In this document: piece by piece, positions 723-19,591 of the stretch
Numbering within the stretch: the stretch's first letter is position 1
Layout: the number at the start of each line of letters is the position of its first letter
IMG/VR virus record: IMGVR_UViG_3300023284_000165
Location: 1-20,915 of that record
Strand: one strand, 5' to 3'
Length of the DNA stretch: 20,915 nucleotides
Source of the DNA: a virus
Notes under the pieces: generated by a model
Told to the model about the DNA's origin: nothing
Databases searched by the model: none
What the model saw: only the letters and a program-made list of their open reading frames with translations
Translations under genes and position numbers: made by a program

Positions 723-3700
723 TAGAATACTCCCGTCTTGTTGAAGAGTGGGTTCCTGATGATCCTCTCGGTCGGGCCTCGTAGCCGTCGAATCTGCGCC
801 TGTCTCGGGGTTTCCTTTTTAATCCGCACACGCTGTTCCTTGGTCTTGAGCGAAGCCTGTCGGATAAGCTCCCGTTTTACGGTCGGGTCCATGAACCGCG
901 TCGGCAGGACACCGCCGTTCGCTTTGCGGTAAGCAGTGATGAAATCGTTGGCCGAGTTGAACTGGCCCTTCTTGAGCAACCGGATTACCTCGCGTCGGGC
1001 GATAGCGTCCGCCGTGGGTAAGCCAGCGAACGAGGCTACGAAGTCTCCCGCGTTTCCGCCCGCCTGCCACTCCGACCACGCTTGTCCGAACCGCCGAAGA
1101 GGGACCGGCAGAAGGTTCCGGGCTCCGAACTGCTTTATCGCTTCGTCAGTCCGTTGGCTCTCGAAGAACTTATTGCCGAGTTCTCCCGCCTCGAACACGA
1201 GACGGGCGGTTGGACCGAATCGCACGCCGAAGTCACGGGCGTCGATGCTGTTTTTCAGGGCAGCTTTCGCGCGTACCCAATCACCTTCGCTCGCACCCGC
1301 GAGCACGTCGAACATCTCTACTACGTTTATCGGGGAAGCTACGCCGTCTCCGAGCGTCGGGAATCCTGCTAACGCACCGAACGTGGCAACTCCACCGGAT
1401 GCAGTTAAGAACGTCAGCAACTTTCGCCGGCCTGCTCGTCCCTCTCTGAACCCCCATTTCCACATTAGCTCCGACGCTTTGATCGGGAATGAAGAGAACT
1501 GAAGAGCAGTTCCAATCAGCGGGTCACGGAGTAGCAGCGGTAAATCCACCTTCCCGTATCGGAACTGTGTCTTTCGGACAATGTCGTTTGCGAAGTCTTT
1601 AGCTTCAAGCGGTATGAAGTCGAAGCCCTTGCTCATGGCCTCTTCCAGACTCACACCAGCTTTCTTGGCGTTGGCTTCGTACCACTTACTCAGACCGCCA
1701 AGGTAGGACACGCCTCGGTTCGTAGTTTCAACCTTGTGGAACATCCATCCCGCGACGGCGACCATGCGCTTCCACCCGGAGGTATACGCCGTGTGCGATT
1801 CGCGACGGATGAACATATCGGGAACGTCAAGGCCATGACCGGAGGCGTCAAAGATTCCCTTTCCTAACCCGTGACGGTAAAGCTGCCAACCTCGGACGGT
1901 GTGCCCGACGCCAATCTCGGACGTAGTGAAGAGCGGCTGGAACGCATTTTTCGCCGCCGTCAACGGGTTGAATCCGATGGTACGGACGAACTGAGCCTCT
2001 CGCACATTAGCCGCGATGTGCGCAATTTGATCGGGGATACGGTCCTTGATGCCCGCCACGTCTCGGATATACTCACGCGCGAGACCTTGCACGCCCTCGG
2101 GAAGCTCACCAAGACGAGGGACAAATTCATTCATCACTTTGTCGAAGTAAAGTTTCCGGCTGGTGTTACCGAGATAGGTCATGTATGCTTTAGCGGCGTC
2201 GAACGAATATCCGCCTTTCCCGGTTCGCGTTTCAAAGAACCGAGAGCGCAGGGAAGTCGGTAGACCTTCATAGAGGATGGCCTGGCCCCTGTTCAGCAAG
2301 TCCAGGTTCTCTTGGAGATGCGATGCTCGTTCGAGAGAAGTGGCTCCGCTTTCGCCCTTCAAGGCGTTAATCTCTTGGATAAGTTCTGACTTAACAAGTT
2401 CGGGGTCGAAGATGTGCGTAAGATAGTTCTTGATGCGCCCGACCTTGATGTTCGGGTCAATGGCATGGGCTTCTCGGATGAGTATTTCAAACTCGTCGGA
2501 GAGAACTTTTGCCGCACGTTGGATGGACTTCGGGTAGCGCCCGGCAACGTCGGGGTTTTCTATGATGTACCCGGTTCCAATGCTGGCAACAGTACCCTCT
2601 TTAATTTCGAGATCAGTCAAGCCGCCCCTGCGTTTGCCAATTTCGGATGTCTTCTTACCGAACACGCGGTCGATTGAATCGGTCATGTACCGATCTTTCA
2701 GCAAGGACTGTCGGTCTACCGCCTGGATGAGACGTTTACCGAGAGGGAATTTTTCAAGGTGGAAAGACGGACTCAGCATTGTGGTGAGTAATGGTTTCTC
2801 ACTGAATACTTGCTTGAGGTTTTTGACGCTCTCAATGAACGGCACAGACTTTTTGACAGCAGCAGCAGCCTGGACTCCGGCTTCGGTTGGTTTCAGAAGT
2901 TGGAGTAATTCTATCTCCCGCGCAGCAGTGTTGATCCTCAAATCTTCCGGGTCAGGGACACAGCCTACCGGGGAGGCTCGCTTGCACTTCAATTTCCTCT
3001 TGCCGCGAAACGTCTCGGTAGCTGGTTCGCCTCGATCACGGGACGCTCGGTACTCCATGATCTTGTTCGTAACCTCGGTCTTGGTCTGCTTCAAGGGCTC
3101 GCCGAAGATGTCTCCGCCGGTGAAGACCTCACGGATGACGCTCTCAGCGTCGTTGAACGGCTGATTGATGGTCTTCCGTCCTGACTTTCCACGGAGGAAA
3201 GACTGTACTCCTTTTGGTCCGCGCTCGAACTCTACTCGGAATCCGTGCTCTTCTGCGACTTGACGTAGACGCCGTATGGAATCTGGACGCTGCACCACTT
3301 CAGTCGGATCAACGAATGTGGACTCGCCGACAGGACGTTTTGGGCCTTTAGCAGTAGCCACCTCTGTAACGTCAAGAGGTCTATCAGCAATCCTGAGAAA
3401 ATCTGCATTACCATTGACAGCAGCTTCAGTAGCGACTTCGTTAAACTCAGCAGCAGCCGCATCAGCAACCTCCTTCTTGGGTGTTTTGATTCTACCCTTG
3501 AGGCGCAGGTCTTCCGCGCGCTCCTTCAGTAGATTCTTCCGTCCGGCAGGCTTGCCTCGGTCGGCACGCTTAACCCGCTTGACGGTCTTCTTATCGAACA
3601 GTCCATCTTGCTTTACGTTCGCCTTCGCCTTCTGTACGGCCTTGGCGAGCTTGGCGTTTGCACCGGCATCTGTCTGTGTGACGGTACGAACGTCTTTCTT

Positions 3701-4891
3701 GATCGCGTCGATGGCCGGTGTATCAAGGCCAGCGTTCATTTCAAGTTGGCCTTCGACATCGGTGATAAAGTCTACTTTTTCTTTCGGAATACGCGAAGGT
3801 CCGACTTCAATCGGCCCACCAGCACGCTCCGCTAACGCCCGCCGTGGTACTGCGCCTGTAAGCCTCGGACGTTCCGCACCAAATGGGGAAGGTCGAGCCT
3901 CGATTGCACCACCAGCACGTTCGGGCAGAACTCGCTGTGCTTCGGGCGGAGCAGGACGACGCATGAATCCGGTCTCAGGCTCAGGAATGAATGCCCGGTC
4001 GACCTGCGCTTTAAGCTGTTCAATCGGTACGAACGGTTCAGTGGTTCTAACGCTTTCAGGAAGAATCGGAGATTGCTCGACAGCCCTCCCAATCTCTCCT
4101 TCGGTCAAGGGCGCATCGAGTGTGCGCACCGGAACGGGATTGTCGATAGAGCCCTGCGGAGGCAAGAAGCCCGCGCTTTCGAGCGCGAGACGGGTGAAGT
4201 CCGGGTTGCCAAAGTCTATCTTGCCGGGAGACCGAGTGAGCAATTGCCGTTCAATCTCTGCGAGCGGGATTTGTCCTACGGTTCCCTTGGAGATTTCCCG
4301 CGCTTTGCGTAGGAGTGGTACAAGTTCGCCCACGCCGAATAATGCCGAGTTTATTGCTAGTGATTCGAGCGTAGATTCAACATCGGGAAGCTCTCTACGC
4401 GCGATTGAGGTTCCAGCCGTGGAGAGGCCGGTGAAGACAGCACCCTCAGTCGCGCCTTTGATAACCTGCTGTGCGCCGGGAGAAAGGACCGCCCTGAGAC
4501 CTGCCTTCGCCATGATGCGCGGAAGAAAGCGCGCGGCAATAGCCTGAGCAGCCTTCGCCGGGACAACAAAGCCGGGAACGATGCCCGCGATGTCTGCAAG
4601 ACCTTCGCCCACGCCCACAGGCTCCGGTAGCTCGGGCTGGAAGAGTCCAAAGGACGCTTCGCGTGCGGCTGACTTGAAGAATCTCTCACCGAGACCTGGA
4701 CGTATTTGAGGGTCCGCCGCTCTACTTACAAACGCACCCGCAGCTTCCGGGCTCAATCCCTCTTCTCGTAATTGTCGGATGTTATCTTGGATAGACTCTA
4801 GGATGGACGAGTCGGGGATGCCCTCAGAACGGAATTGCGCGATGTCCGCAGCGTAAATTGGGTATAGCTTTTCTAGGGCAATGAACGCCAT
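722..4891 (-). CDS. Giant ejection-type (internal virion) protein, 1389 aa
   Basis: The largest gene here starts 7 bases after an AAGGAG site. Residues 95-200 are Gly/Ala-rich with hydrophobic, amphipathic stretches. Residues 319-335 and 350-366 form an internal repeat around ERAGG(A/P)IE. Residues 410-475 are strongly Lys/Arg-rich. Residues 700-1300 look globular and include HLEKFPLGKRLIQ near 711, KVETTNRG near 1053-1060, and TQFRYGKVDLPLLLRDP near 1108-1123. The last block resembles the C-terminal part of large polyvalent or ejection proteins (LPD38-like), recalled from memory and not tested. Such proteins are packed in the head and injected to help form a DNA conduit across the envelope. 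Position after the 262- and 349-aa genes recalls the T7 gp14-15-16 order. No transglycosylase or peptidase motif is visible. Confidence 0.75.
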   Translation of the reverse strand: MAFIALEKLYPIYAADIAQFRSEGIPDSSILESIQDNIRQLREEGLSPEAAGAFVSRAADPQIRPGLGERFFKSAAREASFGLFQPELPEPVGVGEGLADIAGIVPGFVVPAKAAQAIAARFLPRIMAKAGLRAVLSPGAQQVIKGATEGAVFTGLSTAGTSIARRELPDVESTLESLAINSALFGVGELVPLLRKAREISKGTVGQIPLAEIERQLLTRSPGKIDFGNPDFTRLALESAGFLPPQGSIDNPVPVRTLDAPLTEGEIGRAVEQSPILPESVRTTEPFVPIEQLKAQVDRAFIPEPETGFMRRPAPPEAQRVLPERAGGAIEARPSPFGAERPRLTGAVPRRALAERAGGPIEVGPSRIPKEKVDFITDVEGQLEMNAGLDTPAIDAIKKDVRTVTQTDAGANAKLAKAVQKAKANVKQDGLFDKKTVKRVKRADRGKPAGRKNLLKERAEDLRLKGRIKTPKKEVADAAAAEFNEVATEAAVNGNADFLRIADRPLDVTEVATAKGPKRPVGESTFVDPTEVVQRPDSIRRLRQVAEEHGFRVEFERGPKGVQSFLRGKSGRKTINQPFNDAESVIREVFTGGDIFGEPLKQTKTEVTNKIMEYRASRDRGEPATETFRGKRKLKCKRASPVGCVPDPEDLRINTAAREIELLQLLKPTEAGVQAAAAVKKSVPFIESVKNLKQVFSEKPLLTTMLSPSFHLEKFPLGKRLIQAVDRQSLLKDRYMTDSIDRVFGKKTSEIGKRRGGLTDLEIKEGTVASIGTGYIIENPDVAGRYPKSIQRAAKVLSDEFEILIREAHAIDPNIKVGRIKNYLTHIFDPELVKSELIQEINALKGESGATSLERASHLQENLDLLNRGQAILYEGLPTSLRSRFFETRTGKGGYSFDAAKAYMTYLGNTSRKLYFDKVMNEFVPRLGELPEGVQGLAREYIRDVAGIKDRIPDQIAHIAANVREAQFVRTIGFNPLTAAKNAFQPLFTTSEIGVGHTVRGWQLYRHGLGKGIFDASGHGLDVPDMFIRRESHTAYTSGWKRMVAVAGWMFHKVETTNRGVSYLGGLSKWYEANAKKAGVSLEEAMSKGFDFIPLEAKDFANDIVRKTQFRYGKVDLPLLLRDPLIGTALQFSSFPIKASELMWKWGFREGRAGRRKLLTFLTASGGVATFGALAGFPTLGDGVASPINVVEMFDVLAGASEGDWVRAKAALKNSIDARDFGVRFGPTARLVFEAGELGNKFFESQRTDEAIKQFGARNLLPVPLRRFGQAWSEWQAGGNAGDFVASFAGLPTADAIARREVIRLLKKGQFNSANDFITAYRKANGGVLPTRFMDPTVKRELIRQASLKTKEQRVRIKKETPRQAQIRRLRGPTERIIRNPLFNKTGVF

Positions 4892-4900
4892 AGAATCTCC

Positions 4901-5950
4901 TTATCGTTGTGGTGCCCTTCCTAATGCTCCGCGAACACCAGCTTGACCAAGAATAGATCGGAGGAAGTTTATCACGTCCATAACTTCCCCGCCAGGAGTA
5001 AGTTCGCCTGGGCCTGCGCCTTCAGGAATACCCGGCTGAATCAGTCGTTGTCGACCTTCTTGAATGCGACGGGACCGGCGTGGTGCCCGAGCGCGTGTAG
5101 GTACGGCCCCTCTTTGTGCTGCACCGGGCCTTGCTCTTCCACCGCGCTCTTGCTGAAGCACGCGGATGATTTCGTCAGTCGTACCTTCGATAGTCCGACC
5201 GTTGATCGTGATAGCTCCTCGATCCCCTCCACCTGCGTCAGCTTGAGGACGCCTAGTGAGACTACCGACTCTACCTCCAAATCCTAATCCAGCCGCGCGA
5301 ATTAGCTCGGACTGTTGTAGAGCGAATTGAGCAGCCGCACCATTACCAGTTGCCGCAAATGTTTCTGCCAATTGTTCAAGCTGTTCAGCTTCTCGGAGAT
5401 TGCTGGCTTTGAACTCCCTGTTCAGTTTGTTGAACTCTGTTTCCTTTGCAGTGTCCGTGAACTTACCCGTCTCCCTGTCCGGCAGCAAGTCCTGTACGGC
5501 TGTGCGGGCTGCTTGTTCTCGCTCTTGAAACTGCCGAGAGATACTCGTAAGCTGGCCGATGTTTGTGAGACCGCCTGCCCCGAGAACACCTCCGCCGCCT
5601 GCGCGTGTTGCGCGCGTACCGCGAGTACCGCCGCCGAATAGACCTTTGGCTGCGATCTGCTCTAGCTCGAAAGGCTGGACAGCCTGTTGTGTTGCACCTG
5701 CTCCGAGGGCCTTAAGTAATATATCCTGTAAGCCAGCCTCACGCCCGCCCGCGAGGGCGCTCTGGAAACGCGTGCCGAAGTCTGTTCCCGGTGCCAAAAA
5801 ACTCTCGAACAGTTTCGCTACCCTTAAAGTTTCTTCAGGAGATACGCCCGGTCGACCGGCAGTGCCAGCCTGCAAAACTCTCGGAGCACCACGCACCTGT
5901 CCGCGCTGGTTCCGCAGAGGTTCAAGTAATTTTGAGAAAAAACTTGACAT
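4901..5950 (-). CDS. Probable internal virion protein, Gly/Ala/Arg-rich, 349 aa
   Basis: Starts at an ATG with GGAGG 7 bases upstream and lies 9 bases after the 262-aa gene and 9 before the giant ejection protein, so the three are co-expressed. The N-terminus (MSSFFSKLLEPL) is amphipathic. Residues 105-130 are Gly-rich linkers, about 137-225 is helical and charged, and a short segment GAITINGRTIEGTTDEII looks like beta strands followed by a helix. An Arg-rich stretch follows at about 270-300. No enzyme motif is visible. By gene order I infer a second ejection or internal core protein. A neck or tail accessory role is possible. I do not recognise a named family. Confidence 0.6.
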   Translation of the reverse strand: MSSFFSKLLEPLRNQRGQVRGAPRVLQAGTAGRPGVSPEETLRVAKLFESFLAPGTDFGTRFQSALAGGREAGLQDILLKALGAGATQQAVQPFELEQIAAKGLFGGGTRGTRATRAGGGGVLGAGGLTNIGQLTSISRQFQEREQAARTAVQDLLPDRETGKFTDTAKETEFNKLNREFKASNLREAEQLEQLAETFAATGNGAAAQFALQQSELIRAAGLGFGGRVGSLTRRPQADAGGGDRGAITINGRTIEGTTDEIIRVLQQERGGRARPGAAQRGAVPTRARAPRRSRRIQEGRQRLIQPGIPEGAGPGELTPGGEVMDVINFLRSILGQAGVRGALGRAPQR

Positions 5951-5959
5951 TGGTGCCTC

Positions 5960-6748
5960 CTACAAGCTATTGAGCAGATTGATTAACTGCGTGAGTTCAT
6001 TCTGCCGTCTTGACTGTTCGAACTGTCGGCCTTGAAGACCAAGCTGCGCCAGCAGAGTGTCGATCTCTCCGCCCGCTCGTGAAACCTCTCGTCCGCGCCG
6101 CTCTTCAAATTCACCAAGAATGTTGCTTGGAACGGTCCCACTTACGTCCCGGCCAAGAGCGCCGAACTGGTTGAGTGTCCGTTGACGAGCAGCGTCAATG
6201 ATGTCGTTGATGTCTGCGGTGCGTGGTCCGAGTAATTCCTCTCGTGTCGGAAGTCCTAGATCAAAGTCTCCGCCTCCGCCTCCGGCTCCCTGAAGAGCCT
6301 GAAGGATCATCTGTTGAACCCGATCTCCAAACGAGCCGGGGGCAAACCCTCCGGTGACGGAGAGAATGTCACTGCCTTGGATTCCTGGTCCCGGTCGGAG
6401 TCGCTGCGTAACGCCGCCCTGCGTGAAGATGGTTCCTGTCCCTTCTTCCGCCGGTCGCGGCTGCGGTGCAAGTCGGAGAGCTTCCTGTTGTCGGGCTGCT
6501 TGTTGTGGGTCTTCTGTGGGCTGACCGCCGACATCGACTCCGGCTTGTGCGAGTGCGTCTAAGATCATTTGTAGAGCGTCTTGGGTGCCCCCTCCAAATC
6601 CGCCGGGTGCAAAGAACTCCGCTCCACCAACCCGTGATAATTCACCCGGACGTGCGCTCGTCTGGAATTGTGAAAACGCGTCAGGGTCGGTGAATCCCCC
6701 GCCTGCTCTACCTCGGGTAGCGGTTTGTGTTCCTCGTGTGTGTGGCAT
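5960..6748 (-). CDS. Probable internal virion protein with internal duplication, 262 aa
   Basis: An AAGGAGG site precedes the ATG by 7 bases. The first 170 residues are Gly/Gln/Pro-rich. They contain two copies of a module beginning FAPG(G/S)F and continuing to a helix QMIL(D/Q)AL-x-(Q/G)AG, at about 46-70 and 135-156. The last 90 residues are predicted helical, with EFEERRGREVSRAGGEIDTL and a Gln-rich amphipathic end. The protein has no Cys and no enzyme motif. It is the first of three consecutive genes that together look like an ejection-protein set. Assignment rests on position and helical composition, so a tail-needle or portal-plug role cannot be excluded. Confidence 0.58.
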   Translation of the reverse strand: MPHTRGTQTATRGRAGGGFTDPDAFSQFQTSARPGELSRVGGAEFFAPGGFGGGTQDALQMILDALAQAGVDVGGQPTEDPQQAARQQEALRLAPQPRPAEEGTGTIFTQGGVTQRLRPGPGIQGSDILSVTGGFAPGSFGDRVQQMILQALQGAGGGGGDFDLGLPTREELLGPRTADINDIIDAARQRTLNQFGALGRDVSGTVPSNILGEFEERRGREVSRAGGEIDTLLAQLGLQGRQFEQSRRQNELTQLINLLNSL

Positions 6749-11853: not shown

Positions 11854-12609
11854 CTACGCCGCCACGCCAGCAAGTCGCAGTGAAAATGTAGATTCCTGTG
11901 CCGCGAAGCCCTGCGGTAGTGTGTTCTGTAACCATATTCCTTGTGCGGAACCAGGCGTGAGGTTGCCCGAGTTTGCAACCGCTTTGGTCGTCTGATCGAA
12001 CACGAAAGCTATCGGCGCGACCTGTCGATTATTGCCAACGCCGTTGTCCGTAATCCCGTCCAATGTAAATTCCAACGCAAACGTTATTACACCCTGGACA
12101 TCGTCGATCAGAAGTACCTCGGATGCCGTGAGTGAGTCTACGCCGTTGGTGTTTTTGACGAATACCTTGTCGAAGTAAGTCCGGGTATTGCCGGACGCTC
12201 CCTCGGCTATTACATCATGGAACACTCTCCGAACAGTAATGATAGTCGGACCAAGGACGATGAGATCATCTACCGGCCCTGTCTCTCGTATCGTCACGGT
12301 ACGGACTCCATCCGGGGCAGACAACACCGCCCTCAAGATGGTCTTCATGATGCTTGTGAACGCGACAGGCGCAGCGCCCGTCAGAGTTCTAGTCTCGCTC
12401 GTCACGACGCCGGTATTGTCGATGAAGTGGATGGTCAGCATCCGGGTGTCTGCGCCGTCCGACAATGCTTCCACCGTTCCGTCCGGGTCTATGTCGACGA
12501 AAATCACATTCGTGGTCAGGTCAATAGCTCCGCCGATCTGCGTTGTGAGATCGTCATTCGCCATCACCTGTGAACCAAAGTAAACAATATCTGAGTCTAC
12601 GACAGCCAT
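11854..12609 (-). CDS. Phage structural protein, beta-rich, 251 aa
   Basis: The start is the ATG at 12609, which overlaps the TAA of the adaptor gene by one base. GGGAG lies 9 bases before it, inside the longer TTG-started frame, so that frame is rejected. The product opens MAVVDSDIVYFGSQVMANDD, then GGAIDLTTNVIFVDIDPDGT. I associate this arrangement with a phage structural family found near head-tail connector genes, but I cannot name it firmly. Later parts alternate strand-like and turn residues through to LRLAGVAA. I infer a tail or neck protein of the virion. Confidence 0.65.
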   Translation of the reverse strand: MAVVDSDIVYFGSQVMANDDLTTQIGGAIDLTTNVIFVDIDPDGTVEALSDGADTRMLTIHFIDNTGVVTSETRTLTGAAPVAFTSIMKTILRAVLSAPDGVRTVTIRETGPVDDLIVLGPTIITVRRVFHDVIAEGASGNTRTYFDKVFVKNTNGVDSLTASEVLLIDDVQGVITFALEFTLDGITDNGVGNNRQVAPIAFVFDQTTKAVANSGNLTPGSAQGIWLQNTLPQGFAAQESTFSLRLAGVAA

Positions 12610-13292
12610 TAGTAGCTCTCCCAATCGAAGCGCCTACGCCTAGAAAACTGATTCACTTGGCGGGGGCCGGTTCTGATCTTCATACCGTATTTGCCTTTCA
12701 ATCGCTTCTGATTCGAATACGTCACCAAGTCCTCGTACAGCGGGCGAGCAAGTTCCTGCCACACCAATGCCTCATCGTGCGCGTTCGGCAGCTTCTTATA
12801 GAAACGCCAGGTCGCCCATGCTTCTACGAGGTCTTCCCATGTAACAGTGAGTTCGTTACTCTGTCCGCCAACGAGGTCCGGCAAGAATTTGTAGTATTCC
12901 AGGTGCAGGTCTTGGGTGTCATCATCCGGCTTTGGAGGCCACACGAAGAAAGCATCACGGAAGATCGTGTACGCTTCGGGTTCGCCTTCATCGTCCACGT
13001 TCCAGAGGTTTCGGGCTTCCTCGAATGACAATTGATCGAGCGGGTCTGTCCGCCATGATCCGTCCTCATCGAGTCGGTAGACGTTTACCATGTCTTTGAA
13101 GTCAGACGGCAGATCGTAGTCCTGTTGGTCTATGACAAGGTCTCGGGTAGCGATCTCTTCCATGAAGTAATGGTTATCCCGGCGCTGAAGCTCCTTAAGA
13201 GACGCCGTCAGCGTACTCTCGATAAGCACCTGCTTGTCCGAGCGTCCGGTTATGGTGATGATGTTCGCAACGATTGCGTCAAACGTCGCCAT
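12609..13292 (-). CDS. Head-tail adaptor (connector) protein, 227 aa
   Basis: The N-terminus is helical (ESTLTASLKELQRRDNHYFM), followed by Q-Q-D-Y-D-L-P-S-D-F at 56-65. That is the signature strand of SU10-type and related adaptors. Next come PEAYTIFRDAFFVWPPKP at 105-122 and a helical region ending in a basic tail (RRRRFDWESY). Adaptors form the ring below the portal that receives the tail. A GGAG site lies 5 bases before the ATG, only 12 bases from the 3' end of the tRNA. The gene starts the tail block. Family assignment is from motif pattern and position. Confidence 0.75.
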   Translation of the reverse strand: MATFDAIVANIITITGRSDKQVLIESTLTASLKELQRRDNHYFMEEIATRDLVIDQQDYDLPSDFKDMVNVYRLDEDGSWRTDPLDQLSFEEARNLWNVDDEGEPEAYTIFRDAFFVWPPKPDDDTQDLHLEYYKFLPDLVGGQSNELTVTWEDLVEAWATWRFYKKLPNAHDEALVWQELARPLYEDLVTYSNQKRLKGKYGMKIRTGPRQVNQFSRRRRFDWESY

Positions 13293-14013: not shown

Positions 14014-14033
14014 CCTCTCAGATTACTGAGAGG
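14014..14033 (-). promoter_or_regulatory. Perfect stem-loop holding the capsid stop codon in its loop
   Basis: On the minus strand CCTCTCAG-TAAT-CTGAGAGG is a perfect 8-bp stem with a 4-base loop. The capsid gene's TAA is the first three loop bases. A ribosome finishing the capsid gene must open it, and no T-run follows. It sits 5 bases before the GGAGG of the decoration gene. Roles in transcript stability, termination or capsid-to-decoration ratio would all fit. Confidence 0.6.
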
Positions 14034-15003
14034 TGATGTGAAAGATGTGAGACTCGGGGATCGTGTCGGTCGCGAGGTGCTTCCAGGTGATCTTCCAGCC
14101 CAGGAGCGCGTACCAAGCAATACCTTTGTCTCGCCCGAAGTCCTGTGGTATCTTCGCTCGAAGTTCTTCCGGCGTTGCGATACCTTCCATGACCGGGTCT
14201 TCGCCAAAGAGCACAGCTTCTCCGAGCACATTCGCGGACCCGGTGCCATTACTCAGAGCAGAGGTGTGGTTTGACTCAACCACGCGCACGCCGTAAATCC
14301 GGCCAACCTCACCATTGATAAGGCGGTCGGGTGACGTGTACTTCAACCACTCTTCGAATTCCGGGTCGTCCTTGATTCCACGAGCAGCCTTGACGGAGGC
14401 GATCATGATATAATCACCTTCTGGCCCGGTGAAGGGCATGACAGGGTTGAAAACCTCGGACCCAAATTCACCTGTCTTGAACGCATCAACCATCTCCTTA
14501 ACGTGGAAGATGGCGAGGTTCGCTGTCGCGGTCGTAGACGGAGTACCATCGTTGTCGAAGGTTCCCGAAGCAAGACCTGTCGGGATGTACTTCGTGTTCG
14601 TGTCCTTAAACTCCAACGCCACGTTGATGTCGATGACCTTGACCATGTCATCCCGCAACGCACGCTGCACCGGGTTCTGAATGTCGAACTCAGAAAGCAT
14701 TTCCAGCTTCCCGGTGTAAGGGATTGAGTTACCATACTCGTCGATGATGAGACTGTCCTTGACGATCTGGAACTTCGTCTCAGGAATCTTGACCGCCTCG
14801 GTCAGTCTTCCACCCTGCGTCTGGACGTTCGAGACTTTATCGAAGTCCAGGGTATCGCCTTTGTTCTTGCCGAAGCCAGGCTCCGTTCGAACGAACTGCC
14901 GAAACTTCATCATCGGCTGTGTCGCCTTCCGAAGCTGCTTAGACAAGGGCGGGTTCGCAAGGAATCCACCATCAGCGGATACGGCCCACTGTTGCCTAGC
15001 CAT
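14023..15003 (-). CDS. Major capsid protein, N4-gp56 family
   Basis: The 326-residue protein has the family's typical start: an arm region, then FGKNKGDTLDFDKVSNV (44-60), followed by QGGRLTEAVKIPETKF (63-78) and a long helix-containing segment with GNSIPYTGKLEMLSEFD (91-107). The middle has FNPVMPFTGPEGDYIMI and the end IFHITSQ. These match the HK97-fold capsid group named after N4 gp56. A GGAGG site lies 7 bases before the ATG. It is next to the scaffold-like gene upstream and the decoration gene downstream. No N-terminal propeptide cleavage motif is obvious. Confidence 0.9.
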   Translation of the reverse strand: MARQQWAVSADGGFLANPPLSKQLRKATQPMMKFRQFVRTEPGFGKNKGDTLDFDKVSNVQTQGGRLTEAVKIPETKFQIVKDSLIIDEYGNSIPYTGKLEMLSEFDIQNPVQRALRDDMVKVIDINVALEFKDTNTKYIPTGLASGTFDNDGTPSTTATANLAIFHVKEMVDAFKTGEFGSEVFNPVMPFTGPEGDYIMIASVKAARGIKDDPEFEEWLKYTSPDRLINGEVGRIYGVRVVESNHTSALSNGTGSANVLGEAVLFGEDPVMEGIATPEELRAKIPQDFGRDKGIAWYALLGWKITWKHLATDTIPESHIFHITSQ

Positions 15004-15022: not shown

Positions 15023-15733
15023 CTAGGGATTCAAGCCGAACATCTTGGAGCCTCGGTCTTTGCGCTCCTTAAGGTACTCGTCGAAGCTCTCGTCTTTCTC
15101 TTCGTCTTCTTTGGTCGGCGCTGGTTCGTTGCCGCCGGTGCCAATGTCAGCAGCACCTTTCTTGTTGTCCTTCTCGAATTCCTTTGCCTTTTTCTTGTCC
15201 TCGTCATGCTGCTGTAACATAGCAGCAAGTTTATCGTTGTAGGAATCTTTCGCTTTACTCAGACGGTCGGCAAGTGTGCCTTTCGTCTTTTGAAGCTCAA
15301 GAGCAAAAAGCTCTGGATTTTGTCGAACATCCGGGTTGGCGATAACAAAATCGCGAATACCGTCACGGGTGTCGATCATCTTTGACACTCCGTCGTAAAC
15401 GTGAGTTATCAACTCTTCGCCAAACTCGCGGAGACCTGCTTTGGGGTTTTGTATAAAACGCTCGGTGTATTGCTCGTCCAGGCTTTGCTGCTTCTCCCTG
15501 GCTTCCGGGGTATCCTCGGTCCCTGCTGCGCCTTCTCCGCCCGCCAATAGCTGATCGACGGTGCCCTTCCAGCGTGCAGTTTCCTCGGCCCTCTCGTGAG
15601 CCATACGCTCGGCGCTCTTATACGCCTCAACCAAATCTTCTTGAGTCTTGAACTTACCGGCGATGAGTTCTTCGCCTTTACCGGCCCCGTCTTTGGGGTT
15701 ATCGGTGCCCTTCTCGTTCGCCTCGTCCGTCAT
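15023..15733 (-). CDS. Scaffold-like capsid assembly protein, 236 aa
   Basis: The ATG at 15733, with GGAGG 7-8 bases upstream, is preferred to an upstream in-frame start at 15805 that overlaps the preceding gene. The product is very charged and helical, with acidic and Lys-rich patches. Residues 25-43 read AGKFKTQEDLVEAYKSAER, a motif typical of phage scaffold proteins. Residues 85-190 are helical. The last third is a Lys/Glu-rich linker ending in KERKDRGSKMFGLNP, which could bind the capsid. It ends 19 bases before the capsid ATG. Scaffolds guide shell assembly and leave or are digested. Confidence 0.8.
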   Translation of the reverse strand: MTDEANEKGTDNPKDGAGKGEELIAGKFKTQEDLVEAYKSAERMAHERAEETARWKGTVDQLLAGGEGAAGTEDTPEAREKQQSLDEQYTERFIQNPKAGLREFGEELITHVYDGVSKMIDTRDGIRDFVIANPDVRQNPELFALELQKTKGTLADRLSKAKDSYNDKLAAMLQQHDEDKKKAKEFEKDNKKGAADIGTGGNEPAPTKEDEEKDESFDEYLKERKDRGSKMFGLNP

Positions 15734-15776
15734 CTGCCTTTCCTCCTTGGAGTTATCCCTGTGGGGCTCCGAACAC

Positions 15777-16106
15777 CTATGGTTTCCCTGTCGGCTGTGG
15801 GGCATAGGGGAGTTTGGTTTTGGCCTCGTCTAGCACCTTCCCCGCGCTGTCGTACATCATACTGAACATGCGGAGTAGGTCTTCCAACGCACGAACCTGG
15901 CCTTGGTAGTGCGTGAGTTGAATCATCCCGTCCATTGACGGGGCGCGTTGAGCGTTCTGTACTCGTGCCTGTGCCGCGCGCATCCTATTCAGGATGGCAG
16001 ACACGATGTATTCCCAACGCTGGTCTTCCATGATCCCCCGGATTGCTGCTGCATTGATCGTCCGGTGGATAAACTGAGTGTCCTTCTCAATCGAAGGGTC
16101 AGTCAT
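15777..16106 (-). CDS. Small helical protein, 109 aa
   Basis: An AAAGGAG site lies 8 bases before the ATG. The product is alpha-helical by composition: Arg, Met, Gln and Ala in HRTINAAAIRGIMEDQRWEY and a long middle helix with RMRAAQARVQNAQ. A Pro-rich end (YAPQPTGKP) follows. It has no Cys and no membrane segment. The 38-base gap before it holds a stem-loop. It is directly upstream of the scaffold gene. I infer an assembly or head-associated factor. A DNA-binding role is possible because of its basic surface. Confidence 0.62.
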   Translation of the reverse strand: MTDPSIEKDTQFIHRTINAAAIRGIMEDQRWEYIVSAILNRMRAAQARVQNAQRAPSMDGMIQLTHYQGQVRALEDLLRMFSMMYDSAGKVLDEAKTKLPYAPQPTGKP

Positions 16107-16446: not shown

Positions 16447-16534
16447 CATCGCTCCAATCTATTTTCTCGAAGTTTTCCTTGCCTTGCTTGGTCGAACACA
16501 CGGGCTCTGTCCAAGATCGCCGCAAGTGCTTCAT
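16382..16534 (-). CDS. Overlapping 50-aa ORF coupled to the 95-aa gene
   Basis: The ATG overlaps the TGA of the 95-aa gene (TGATG). This continues a row of one-base stop-start overlaps through the 845-, 77- and 95-aa genes. The product has a basic start (MKHLRRSW) and an acidic second half with three Cys (C13, C44, C48). The last 65 bases overlap the start of the 54-aa gene out of frame. The pattern argues for translation, but no independent support exists, and the overlap is long for two free genes. Confidence 0.42.
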   Translation of the reverse strand: MKHLRRSWTEPVCSTKQGKENFEKIDWSDDGTKSEATEDGSAVCAQECDE

Positions 16535-16821
16535 CACTTAAACGCTTTCTGAAATCGACCTCTCGTCTTCAGGAGAGCGCCGACTTCACCGCCGACGGTT
16601 GAATCCTTCGGCTGAGTCTCCATTGCTTTCCTGTTTGCGGCCACACAAGCGTCATGCTTGGGGTCGCCTGCGGTGAACTCTAGGTCACAATTCTTCAACG
16701 GCCCACTGAACGGGGCAGCATTGTGGCCTTGCTCTAGGAACTTCCGGTTACGGAACTTACCGAGGAATCCGAAGTTCTTACCCTTCATTACCTCGTCTGC
16801 TTCTCGATTGTGTTTCGCCAT
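16534..16821 (-). CDS. Small basic protein, second copy of a tandem pair, 95 aa
   Basis: The first 34 residues (MAKHNREADEVMKGK then N-F-G-F-L-G-K-F-R-N-R) match the 77-aa neighbour at 30 of 34 positions, differing at 16, 27, 28 and 31. The rest differs. It has two Cys (C45, C59), an NRKAMETQPKDST segment, and a Lys/Arg-rich end (LLKTRGRFQKAFK). The gene overlaps the 77-aa gene by one base and the 50-aa ORF by one. The shared N-terminus may bind the same partner, for example the portal or DNA, with different C-terminal effects. No family is known to me. Confidence 0.65.
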   Translation of the reverse strand: MAKHNREADEVMKGKNFGFLGKFRNRKFLEQGHNAAPFSGPLKNCDLEFTAGDPKHDACVAANRKAMETQPKDSTVGGEVGALLKTRGRFQKAFK

Positions 16822-17054
16822 TATCGTCTCCGTGGTCGCTCGCCTCCGGCAACTGCGCCGAAGAACCGCTTTTGCTTCGCCGTCAGCGGAGTACCGCCAA
16901 CCTCGTCGTCTCTAAGAATCTCCTTCGCCTTTGCAGACGTGAGTTCACCCCGGTTGTGCCCGCGCTCCAAGATTTCCCGGTTGCGAAACTTACCCAGGAA
17001 CCCGAAGTGCTTGCCCTTCATTACCTCATCTGCTTCTCGGTTGTGTTTTGCCAT
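16720..17054 (-). repeat. Tandem duplicated gene starts (16720-16821 and 16953-17054)
   Basis: Two 102-bp segments begin adjacent genes and encode nearly the same 34 residues. By hand alignment 85 of 102 bases agree, without gaps. Most differences are synonymous, and only four residues change. Conserved protein with drifted DNA indicates an old duplication kept by selection on both copies. Confidence 0.85.
16821..17054 (-). CDS. Small basic protein, first copy of a tandem pair, 77 aa
   Basis: It begins MAKHNREADEVMKGK then H-F-G-F-L-G-K-F-R-N-R, and continues to the same GHN end as its neighbour. The C-terminus is G-G-T-P-L-T-A-K-Q-K-R-F-F-G-A-V-A-G-G then E-R-P-R-R-R. I recall the LTAKQ(K/R)RFFGA-type motif in small phage proteins from structural clusters, but its function is unknown. 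The gene is coupled to both the fibre gene (TAATG) and the second copy (TAATG). Strongly basic character suits binding to DNA or an acidic protein. Duplication gave one copy with and one without the RFFGA end. Confidence 0.7.
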   Translation of the reverse strand: MAKHNREADEVMKGKHFGFLGKFRNREILERGHNRGELTSAKAKEILRDDEVGGTPLTAKQKRFFGAVAGGERPRRR

Positions 17055-19591
17055 TACCCGCCTCCGGCCAGTTCAAACATTCCATGATCGGTTAGCGAGG
17101 CCACAATAAAGTTCAGGAACGCTGCGGTATCCCGTTGGTCAGCCCGGAGCGCGTTAATCTCTTCGGCAAGTTCAGCGATGGCGTCAGGTACATCCTGACC
17201 CACGTTACCGCCAGTGGCAATCGCGCCGATGGTGTTGTCAGTTGCACCACCGCCAGAGTTATCTACCAGTACGGCAGCAGTTCGGTTAGCGTGTGTTGCA
17301 TCCTCTGTTGAGAAATCCTGTGTAACAATCTGGATGCTGGCTTCTGTGCCGAAGAGACCGAATCGGTTTGTGCCATTGGCGAGCTTTCCAAGGTTGAGAA
17401 GGCCGGTGAGCGACCCATTCACATTTTGCTGGATACGCAGTATGGTTTTTTCTGTACCGGATGAAACATCAGCCATCTCACTTATAATACGGTGACTCTC
17501 AGTCTGTACTCCACCAGCATCAGGCTGGAAGAAGGACATATGTATCTCGTCGTTGTCCGCCCTGGTAGCGCGAACAGACCTGAGCCGCAGTATTTCTATG
17601 CTAGGCGTGTTGGTGTCATCCTCAATCGTCAGCATGACGCCGGAGATGGGGGCTGTCCCGATAGCTACGGTGTCAAAGAGACCACTTGTGCGGAACAGTT
17701 GCGCCTCGCCGTCGCCTTGAATCTGGAAATCCATTAGTCTGCCGTCAGGGTTGAAGTCCCATGTACTAGCGTCAACGCCAGCAGTGGCGTTCCAGGTCAT
17801 GATTCGACGGAATACGTTGCCCTGGAAACCTTCAATCTGGAACCCGGAAGCCTTGGCCGCGTTGCTCACGTCCTCGGCAATAGCCGTCATTCGCAGGTAT
17901 TCTTGCGTGGAACCCCCATCTGTGGGCATGTACCAGCCCATGTAGATTTCGTCGTTGTCTAGGCGAGTGGCACGATCACTTTGGAGTCGAATAATCTCCT
18001 TGGATGCTATATTGTCGCCTTGGACAACGTGCAATTTGGCGGCAGGAGCAGTCCCGATACCAACGTCAGTCCCAACGCCCAATGCCATAAGGATACGAGC
18101 AGAACTTACATCCACAAGAAAGGCGGTCGCGTCACCGTTCACTTCGCAACGGAAGTCGGGAGCGTCGCCGGGGCTGGCCCCCGCTCCATCGCCAATAACA
18201 ACTTCATTGACTCCGTTCGGGAGCGACTGAAGCCGCATGTATTCAACAAGCGAACCGTTACTCTGAACTTCAAACAGCAGTGCACCTTTCTCAAGGTTTC
18301 CTGCCTCGGTCACATCGGTGATGATACCAGTGATTCGTGCAGATTCTTGCTGACCACCAGCATCGCCGGGGTTGTAGAAACTCTGAAACACTTCGTCATC
18401 GTCAACGCGTGTAGCGCGAGAAGATTTTAAACGAAGCATCTCTCGGGATGCTGCGTTAGTGTCATTCTCGATAGTTAGTTTTACGCCCCCTATTGCAGCG
18501 CCCCCAATAGCTACAACATCCGCACCTCCGTCGCAAACAAGCAGGGTAACGCTACCACCGGCAAGAACAAAAAAGTCTGTATCCGACCCAGTAGGGTTGA
18601 CAGTAACTCTATTTAAGTCACCATCTAAATGTAAGAAGGAGAGGGGTCCACCACCACTAGACGAACACGCTGTTTCAAACTCCATTATTCCGCCAACAGA
18701 ACCAGCTTGCACAGCAGCAGCCCGGAGAGTAATACGTCCCGTTTCTACTACGTTACCGCCACTATCGGGCTGGAAGAAAGTCATGTAGATTTCGTCGTCG
18801 TCGGCCCTGGTAGCTCTCCGAGATGTCACCCGTAGAATTTCCTGAGAGACGGCGTCTTCTACTTCAGCAACCTCCAAGGGTGCGCCCCCTGTACCGCCAT
18901 CAAACCCAATTATTACGTTACCACCAGGACGGCACGACAGCGAAGTATTAGCCTCATGCTGTACTTTAAATTGAAAACTACCATCACTGTCCGGGTTAAA
19001 GAGCGCAGCAATTGCATCTTCTTCCTCAGTTCCCAAAAACAACATCCGTTGAAGCGTGCCTTCAACCGAAGCATCAAACTCAAACGCCCCGCCACGGGAA
19101 CCCTCATCGACTTCTGTAATCCTACTGGTAAGTCGCGTAAACTCTCTTGGAGCGCCGAGACTATCGGGCTGAAGGAAGTCGATGAAGATTTCGTCATCGT
19201 TAGCGCGGGTAGCACGTTCAGACTGAAGCCTAAGTACCCCTCTAGATGGGGTGTCATGCGCGTTCCGAATGATAATCCCATCGTCAGTGGAACCACTTGA
19301 CCCACGAAGGACTAGGTCAGCCCCCGCATTCACCCCTCCAATGATGGTCTGCCCACCGCCACGTCCAAGTAGAAGAACGTACTGTGCGTGGTCGTCATCC
19401 GATAACCCGGTCAGACCGCCATGATCGGTGACTCCACTGACATTAGCTGTCCAATTCCCATCTTCGAACCACTCGAACATCTCGTCAGTGGTGTTATAGA
19501 TTCGCATACCGTTGACGGCTGAAATAGCGTCACGCTGTACCGTAGTCAGCCGGGGTATGAGTAGGTTATCAAGAACGATCACTGTGGACAT
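17054..19591 (-). CDS. Fibre protein with five repeated modules, 845 aa
   Basis: GGAG lies 7 bases before the ATG. Residues 1-50 form an attachment region. Residues 55-75 (TDHGGLTGLSDDDHAQYVLL) match the H-x-x-L-x-G-L-x-D-D-D-H-x-Q-Y motif common in phage fibres. Five modules follow, each with an IG(T/G)-type strand turn and a core RATR-x-(N/D)-(D/N)-DE(I/V)(F/Y/H) at about 126, 259, 392, 540 and 674. Spacing is about 133, 133, 148 and 134. The C-terminus has a helix (DAIAELAEEINALRADQRDT) and no visible S74 chaperone. It is likely a trimeric, beta-rich head or tail fibre that binds host surface. Its position between portal and scaffold is unusual for a receptor fibre. Confidence 0.82.
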   Translation of the reverse strand: MSTVIVLDNLLIPRLTTVQRDAISAVNGMRIYNTTDEMFEWFEDGNWTANVSGVTDHGGLTGLSDDDHAQYVLLLGRGGGQTIIGGVNAGADLVLRGSSGSTDDGIIIRNAHDTPSRGVLRLQSERATRANDDEIFIDFLQPDSLGAPREFTRLTSRITEVDEGSRGGAFEFDASVEGTLQRMLFLGTEEEDAIAALFNPDSDGSFQFKVQHEANTSLSCRPGGNVIIGFDGGTGGAPLEVAEVEDAVSQEILRVTSRRATRADDDEIYMTFFQPDSGGNVVETGRITLRAAAVQAGSVGGIMEFETACSSSGGGPLSFLHLDGDLNRVTVNPTGSDTDFFVLAGGSVTLLVCDGGADVVAIGGAAIGGVKLTIENDTNAASREMLRLKSSRATRVDDDEVFQSFYNPGDAGGQQESARITGIITDVTEAGNLEKGALLFEVQSNGSLVEYMRLQSLPNGVNEVVIGDGAGASPGDAPDFRCEVNGDATAFLVDVSSARILMALGVGTDVGIGTAPAAKLHVVQGDNIASKEIIRLQSDRATRLDNDEIYMGWYMPTDGGSTQEYLRMTAIAEDVSNAAKASGFQIEGFQGNVFRRIMTWNATAGVDASTWDFNPDGRLMDFQIQGDGEAQLFRTSGLFDTVAIGTAPISGVMLTIEDDTNTPSIEILRLRSVRATRADNDEIHMSFFQPDAGGVQTESHRIISEMADVSSGTEKTILRIQQNVNGSLTGLLNLGKLANGTNRFGLFGTEASIQIVTQDFSTEDATHANRTAAVLVDNSGGGATDNTIGAIATGGNVGQDVPDAIAELAEEINALRADQRDTAAFLNFIVASLTDHGMFELAGGG
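17510..19237 (-). repeat. Five coding modules in the fibre gene, about 400-445 bp apart
   Basis: DNA cores with the pattern gtcgt(t/c/a)gtc-x-gccctggtagc or variants recur near 17550, 17955, 18400, 18800 and 19200 and encode the RATR-x-D-DE segment. Each module also carries a LTIE(N/D)DTN-type strand before the core or a variant of it. The cores are similar enough to permit recombination that changes module number, and diverged enough to show age. Confidence 0.75.

Follow-up and report, generated by a model that had tools for sequence, protein, structure and literature searches.

The internal proteins of T-even phages are diverse, and a targeting sequence is all they have in common (PMC3012670). 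Domain mosaicism, with fragments common to otherwise unrelated proteins, has been described in phages mainly for receptor-binding proteins, endolysins, polymerases and neck proteins (Smug et al. 2023, PMC10684548). Functionally uncharacterised small genes are reported to accompany the genes for portal, scaffold and capsid in the LUZ24/phiEco32 lineage (PMC10386132). All three resemble a pair of small genes, ORF A and ORF B, in a virus record of 20,915 bases (the window, i.e. the whole stretch of DNA analysed), which is a fragment of an SU10/phiEco32-like podovirus. Like the T-even internal proteins, A and B are small, otherwise unrelated proteins encoded beside head functions, which share only an N-terminal segment (30 of 34 residues, termed here the head module), their tails being unrelated. 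The likeness is one of design: no homology to T4 internal proteins was detected in PHROGs, Pfam, NCBIfam or 50,697 phage records including T-even phages. In contrast to the T4 case, the segment comprises 34 residues, the phage is an SU10-like podovirus and A and B are only putative virion components. Compared with the mosaic proteins of Smug and co-workers, we deal with one tandem pair of very small proteins from a head locus, and both parts of A can be traced. A and B lie in the same neighbourhood as the small genes of the LUZ24/phiEco32 lineage; those are conserved lineage-wide, whereas A and B are missing from the 12 capsid relatives examined.

The features of the locus are listed in Table 1. 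ORF A and ORF B overlap by one base (TAATG), and A overlaps the upstream gene for an 845-aa protein in the same manner. Residues 1–34 read MAKHNREADEVMKGKHFGFLGKFRNREILERGHN in ORF A and MAKHNREADEVMKGKNFGFLGKFRNRKFLEQGHN in ORF B, and the start of ORF B is preceded by a ribosome-binding-like GGAG. The two DNA copies are arranged in tandem, 233 nt apart (direct repeat D2, 103 nt, 83%), and represent the only tandem duplication in the window that yields two genes. The preliminary description had reported adjacent, coupled genes with 30 of 34 N-terminal residues in common, a basic LTAKQKRFFGA block at the end of A and a tail with two Cys in B; coordinates, overlaps and identity were all verified, and both tails are as it stated, A ending in KQKRFFGA...RPRRR. 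Its count of about 17 differing bases in 102 has to be corrected to 18, while the excess of silent changes it noted is real. The 10-mer GCCGGAGGCG lies a short way upstream of both head modules (16829–16862 and 17055–17080), 13 nt from one start and about 29 nt from the other; it is possibly a remnant of the duplication or merely a Shine–Dalgarno-rich stretch.

Table 1. Features of the A/B locus and of the adjoining head-assembly genes in the window.
Feature	Position	Strand	Description
ORF A, 77 aa	16821..17054	-	Shared 34-residue head module and complete KQ module; KQ profile score 83 bits (profile of 49 sequences, A itself among them)
ORF B, 95 aa	16534..16821	-	Shared 34-residue head module and orphan tail with two Cys; coding statistics of the tail normal
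Head module copy 1 (A residues 1–34)	16953..17054	-	Shares 30/34 residues with copy 2; DNA differs at 18/102 nt
Head module copy 2 (B residues 1–34)	16720..16821	-	Alignment to copy 1
KQ module, about residues 37–77 of A: GELTSAKAKEILRDDEVGGTPLTAKQKRFFGAVAGGERPRRR	16824..16946	-	At least 156 homologous viral-contig loci; AlphaFold2 helix-hairpin-helix, pLDDT about 90
109-aa protein	15777..16106	-	Same interval, upstream of scaffold-like gene; place and character like the small portal–scaffold genes of relatives
Scaffold-like gene	15023..15805	-	Directly before capsid gene; 26% identical to its counterpart in L014 over 207 residues (E=1e-4)
Major capsid protein, HK97-type	14023..15003	-	phrog_1357, E=1.8e-14
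SU10-type adaptor protein	12609..13292	-	PF24175, E=2.3e-12

The 18 differences between the head modules are distributed 4/1/13 over first, second and third codon positions. An NG86 calculation (S=20, N=82, Sd=13.5, Nd=4.5) gave a dN of about 0.057, a dS of about 1.73, which is a rough figure as dS is saturated, and a dN/dS of 0.033; the excess of synonymous over nonsynonymous changes is highly significant (Fisher p=1.5e-9). Thus the comparison of dN and dS proposed in the preliminary description returned a clear signal. A saturated dS together with a dN/dS of about 0.03 indicates that the protein and not the DNA is conserved in the head module, and that the copies are old, which speaks against both a recent copy and gene conversion. 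Judged from this single pair of copies, on which the conservation rests, both head modules appear to be under strong purifying selection at the protein level. This is in line with the earlier proposal that selection holds the head module in both proteins.

Searches using the whole of A gave matches confined to its C-terminal half. Residues 37–77 of ORF A match the pattern LTxxKAKxILxDGxVxGxxLTxKQ[KR]xFxGAxAGG, and independent pairwise matches of this part to other loci reached E-values down to 3e-14. We refer to this segment of about 38 residues (LTSxKAKxILxDGxVxGxxLTxKQKRFFGAxAGG) as the KQ module, a name coined here. The loci retrieved in uncultivated viruses by a search with its alignment are those counted in Table 1. 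Among the best 80 of 156 loci, the module makes up whole small proteins (41–62 aa), stands at the N-terminal end of long proteins, whose length ranges from hundreds of residues to beyond a thousand, or lies inside other proteins. Stand-alone KQ proteins in other phages begin with MAKKLTS.... Short KQ proteins account for 24 loci among the best 80 of 156, and in 21 of these 24 a TerL, portal or MCP gene is located nearby within 6-kb flanks; this should be taken as a trend, not as a rate, since flank length is limited, several of the loci are nearly identical and part of the labels derive from these very loci. Neighbours were identified by tblastn and the proteins labelled via PHROGs, the 575-aa gene at the portal position by its place only. 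The typical order, TerL, portal-position gene, a gene of about 107 aa, KQ, scaffold-position gene and MCP, matches the position of A ahead of scaffold and capsid. At two loci, L103 (about 1255–6290) and L055 (about 1728–4549), the small KQ gene is found immediately ahead of a TerL-like gene. L103 has further TerL and portal matches upstream on the opposite strand; two related structural segments may be present in this contig, or its assembly may be inverted.

No significant match of the KQ module to PHROGs, Pfam, NCBIfam or PDB was obtained at the sensitivity used. Likewise, no cultured phage matched at the sensitivity used, where low-complexity filtering may hide some, and a text search of the literature for the motif gave no paper. 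The KQ module is a structural element newly described here. AlphaFold2 predicts the KQ part of A as two helices joined by a short hairpin. The head module of A was modelled at low confidence (pLDDT in the 50s), which may be an effect of the lack of aligned homologues, and the model of ORF B was too poor for use (pLDDT 50). There were no significant structural matches to A in PDB or BFVD, and A and B as a whole gave no significant PHROGs, Pfam or NCBIfam hit (phrog_4228, E=0.21, is non-significant). Beyond the head module, the DNA of A and B is no closer than shuffled sequences (score 17 vs 16.2 ± 2.5). The remainders of the two proteins are dissimilar to each other, as first described, but what had been taken in A for an unrelated basic block proves to be a complete phage domain that recurs elsewhere.

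The head module, in contrast, whose recurrence before other C-termini had been proposed as a test, was found nowhere else in the searches below; it is the tail of A that recurs. Peptide patterns taken from either protein or from the two-row alignment detected no further copy in IMG/VR. The DNA pattern for HNREADxVMxG had 0 hits in IMG/VR; that for FGFLGxFRN hit 24 IMG/VR stretches, only 3 of them encoding the motif and none related. Neither tblastn nor blastn revealed a copy in the 50,697 cultured-phage records, and a profile that scores 88–91 bits on the window found none in 12 capsid-related records. Single copies in relatives together with a missing dN/dS signal, named beforehand as counting against the proposal, were not what we found: the signal is clear, and none of the relatives examined has the module. 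For the tail of B, no homologue was detected in any search (IMG/VR, cultured phages, KQ loci). Its coding statistics correspond to the 27th percentile of in-frame segments, a value reached by 4.7% of off-frame segments. Matches of B and A to Rhizobium and Gordonia phages had E-values of 3 to 9 and ran against the strand of the annotated genes, and were taken as chance. A diverged KQ module was rejected both for the head module (hhalign probability 0.4%; profile 1.5 bits, with 44 of 861 scored shuffles as high) and for the tail of B (−1.6 bits, beaten by 689 of 868 scored shuffles).

The genes for capsid, scaffold-like protein and SU10-type adaptor support the head-assembly setting proposed for the pair; the window also encodes a virion structural protein and a protein resembling endolysins. 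The adaptor points to a phage close to SU10/phiEco32. An SU10-type portal (PF23899, E=3e-20) is encoded by L014, the nearest relative by capsid (60% identity), so that both hallmarks of an SU10/phiEco32-like podovirus, adaptor and portal, are present, the portal evidence coming from L014 as the phage's own portal gene lies outside the window. Gene order in L014 is portal, small genes, scaffold and capsid, and A and B sit in the corresponding interval. The 109-aa protein of this interval had no family match. A and B, with both modules, are absent from the 12 capsid relatives, and as the closest relatives do without both modules, neither is essential to this head type. The portal–scaffold interval of relatives contains further proteins that are short and basic (SKAQARAAFGG..., GKPQKQAIAIAL...; L017 3653–3820, L025 5352–5471); they had no Pfam match and look like interchangeable small modules comparable to KQ.

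Since the shared head module stops at residue 34, KQ homology starts at about residue 37 and KQ stands alone elsewhere, A is best read as a fusion of head module and KQ, and the A/B pair as an old duplication combined with domain exchange. A small head-assembly gene would have been duplicated long ago and, before or after this, a fusion of the 34-residue head module with the complete, mobile KQ module would have given ORF A; the other copy would have come to carry the unrelated tail with two Cys (ORF B). Both copies would then have been retained under strong protein-level selection on the head module. This evolutionary part, duplication plus domain fusion, is well supported. The need of two different tails for the same strongly conserved head module suggests a common partner, and the head-assembly location of the pair together with the locations of small KQ proteins makes a component of the phage head the likeliest one. 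Of the 42 capsid-side and KQ-side comparisons able to reveal the head module, 41 had no bearing on a partner. We infer, on the model of the T4 capsid-targeting sequence (CTS), that the head module may be a binding tag, short, basic and probably disordered, with a predicted helix at about residues 7–13, which would bring two different small proteins to one partner in the assembling phage head and into the virion. Candidates for this partner are the portal, the scaffold, the capsid interior and packaged DNA. In T4, a head protease cleaves off the CTS. An (I/L)xE-like site is present in both proteins (ILE in A, FLE in B), and no protease family was detected among the scanned proteins of the window, which is a genome fragment. 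Many small phage proteins encoded near the portal are not virion components, which counts against a tag. Taken as a whole, duplication, fusion and a selected head module acting as docking or packaging tag form a plausible scheme, which we put forward tentatively; the docking function itself is suggested by analogy.

A repeat kept as DNA or RNA, as a packaging signal or regulatory site, would also explain two tandem copies 233 nt apart, but with 13 of the 18 differences at third positions and the silent excess at p=1.5e-9 this is extremely improbable. We further regard it as very unlikely that the duplication was recent and recombinational and that B is a decaying leftover with out-of-frame junk as its tail. 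In favour of this, the tail has no homologue in any search; the dS of about 1.7, however, points to an old duplication, the head module of B has few replacement changes, the tail runs through 61 codons without a stop and resembles genes in its codon statistics, and GGAG stands before the start.

The head module could alternatively be a dimerisation segment from a homodimeric ancestor, with A and B forming a hetero-complex or regulated pair and each tail contributing half of a joint function. Hetero-oligomers are a frequent outcome of subunit duplication, and the adjacent genes with their start/stop overlap are probably co-translated in comparable amounts. Such a complex nevertheless seems unlikely to us, the head module being predicted at low confidence. 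Doubtful, too, is a nonstructural accessory role in the late region, e.g. in host takeover or counter-defence, with the head module as an independent functional domain, for instance one for nucleic-acid binding. Phages often insert accessory genes among late genes, and A and B are both small and basic and are missing in the capsid relatives, but scatter would be expected in this case, whereas small KQ proteins hold to the packaging/head region in 21 of the 24 loci, as a trend among the best 80 of 156.

Returning to the docking tag, a delivery function of the head module would make it a short, naturally occurring address by which proteins could be loaded into podovirus heads; such addresses are so far known mainly from T4-like phages. 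KQ, for its part, is a compact domain with a steady place by portal and capsid genes, unnamed in the libraries searched, and a function for it would annotate many small genes that now have none. That SU10-like podoviruses might use the head module as a head-delivery tag of a new type, and that KQ might be a widespread, undescribed block of head assembly or genome-delivered cargo traded between small and large proteins, is a bolder proposal that we consider improbable as it stands.

The 845-aa gene upstream of the pair (17054–19591, minus strand) gave no relative in a search of viral contigs. It carries three or more internal repeats, each about 86 nt long and 62–73% identical, with ...LRLxSxRATRxDDDEI... 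units, and its product resembles a fibre or decoration protein built from repeats.
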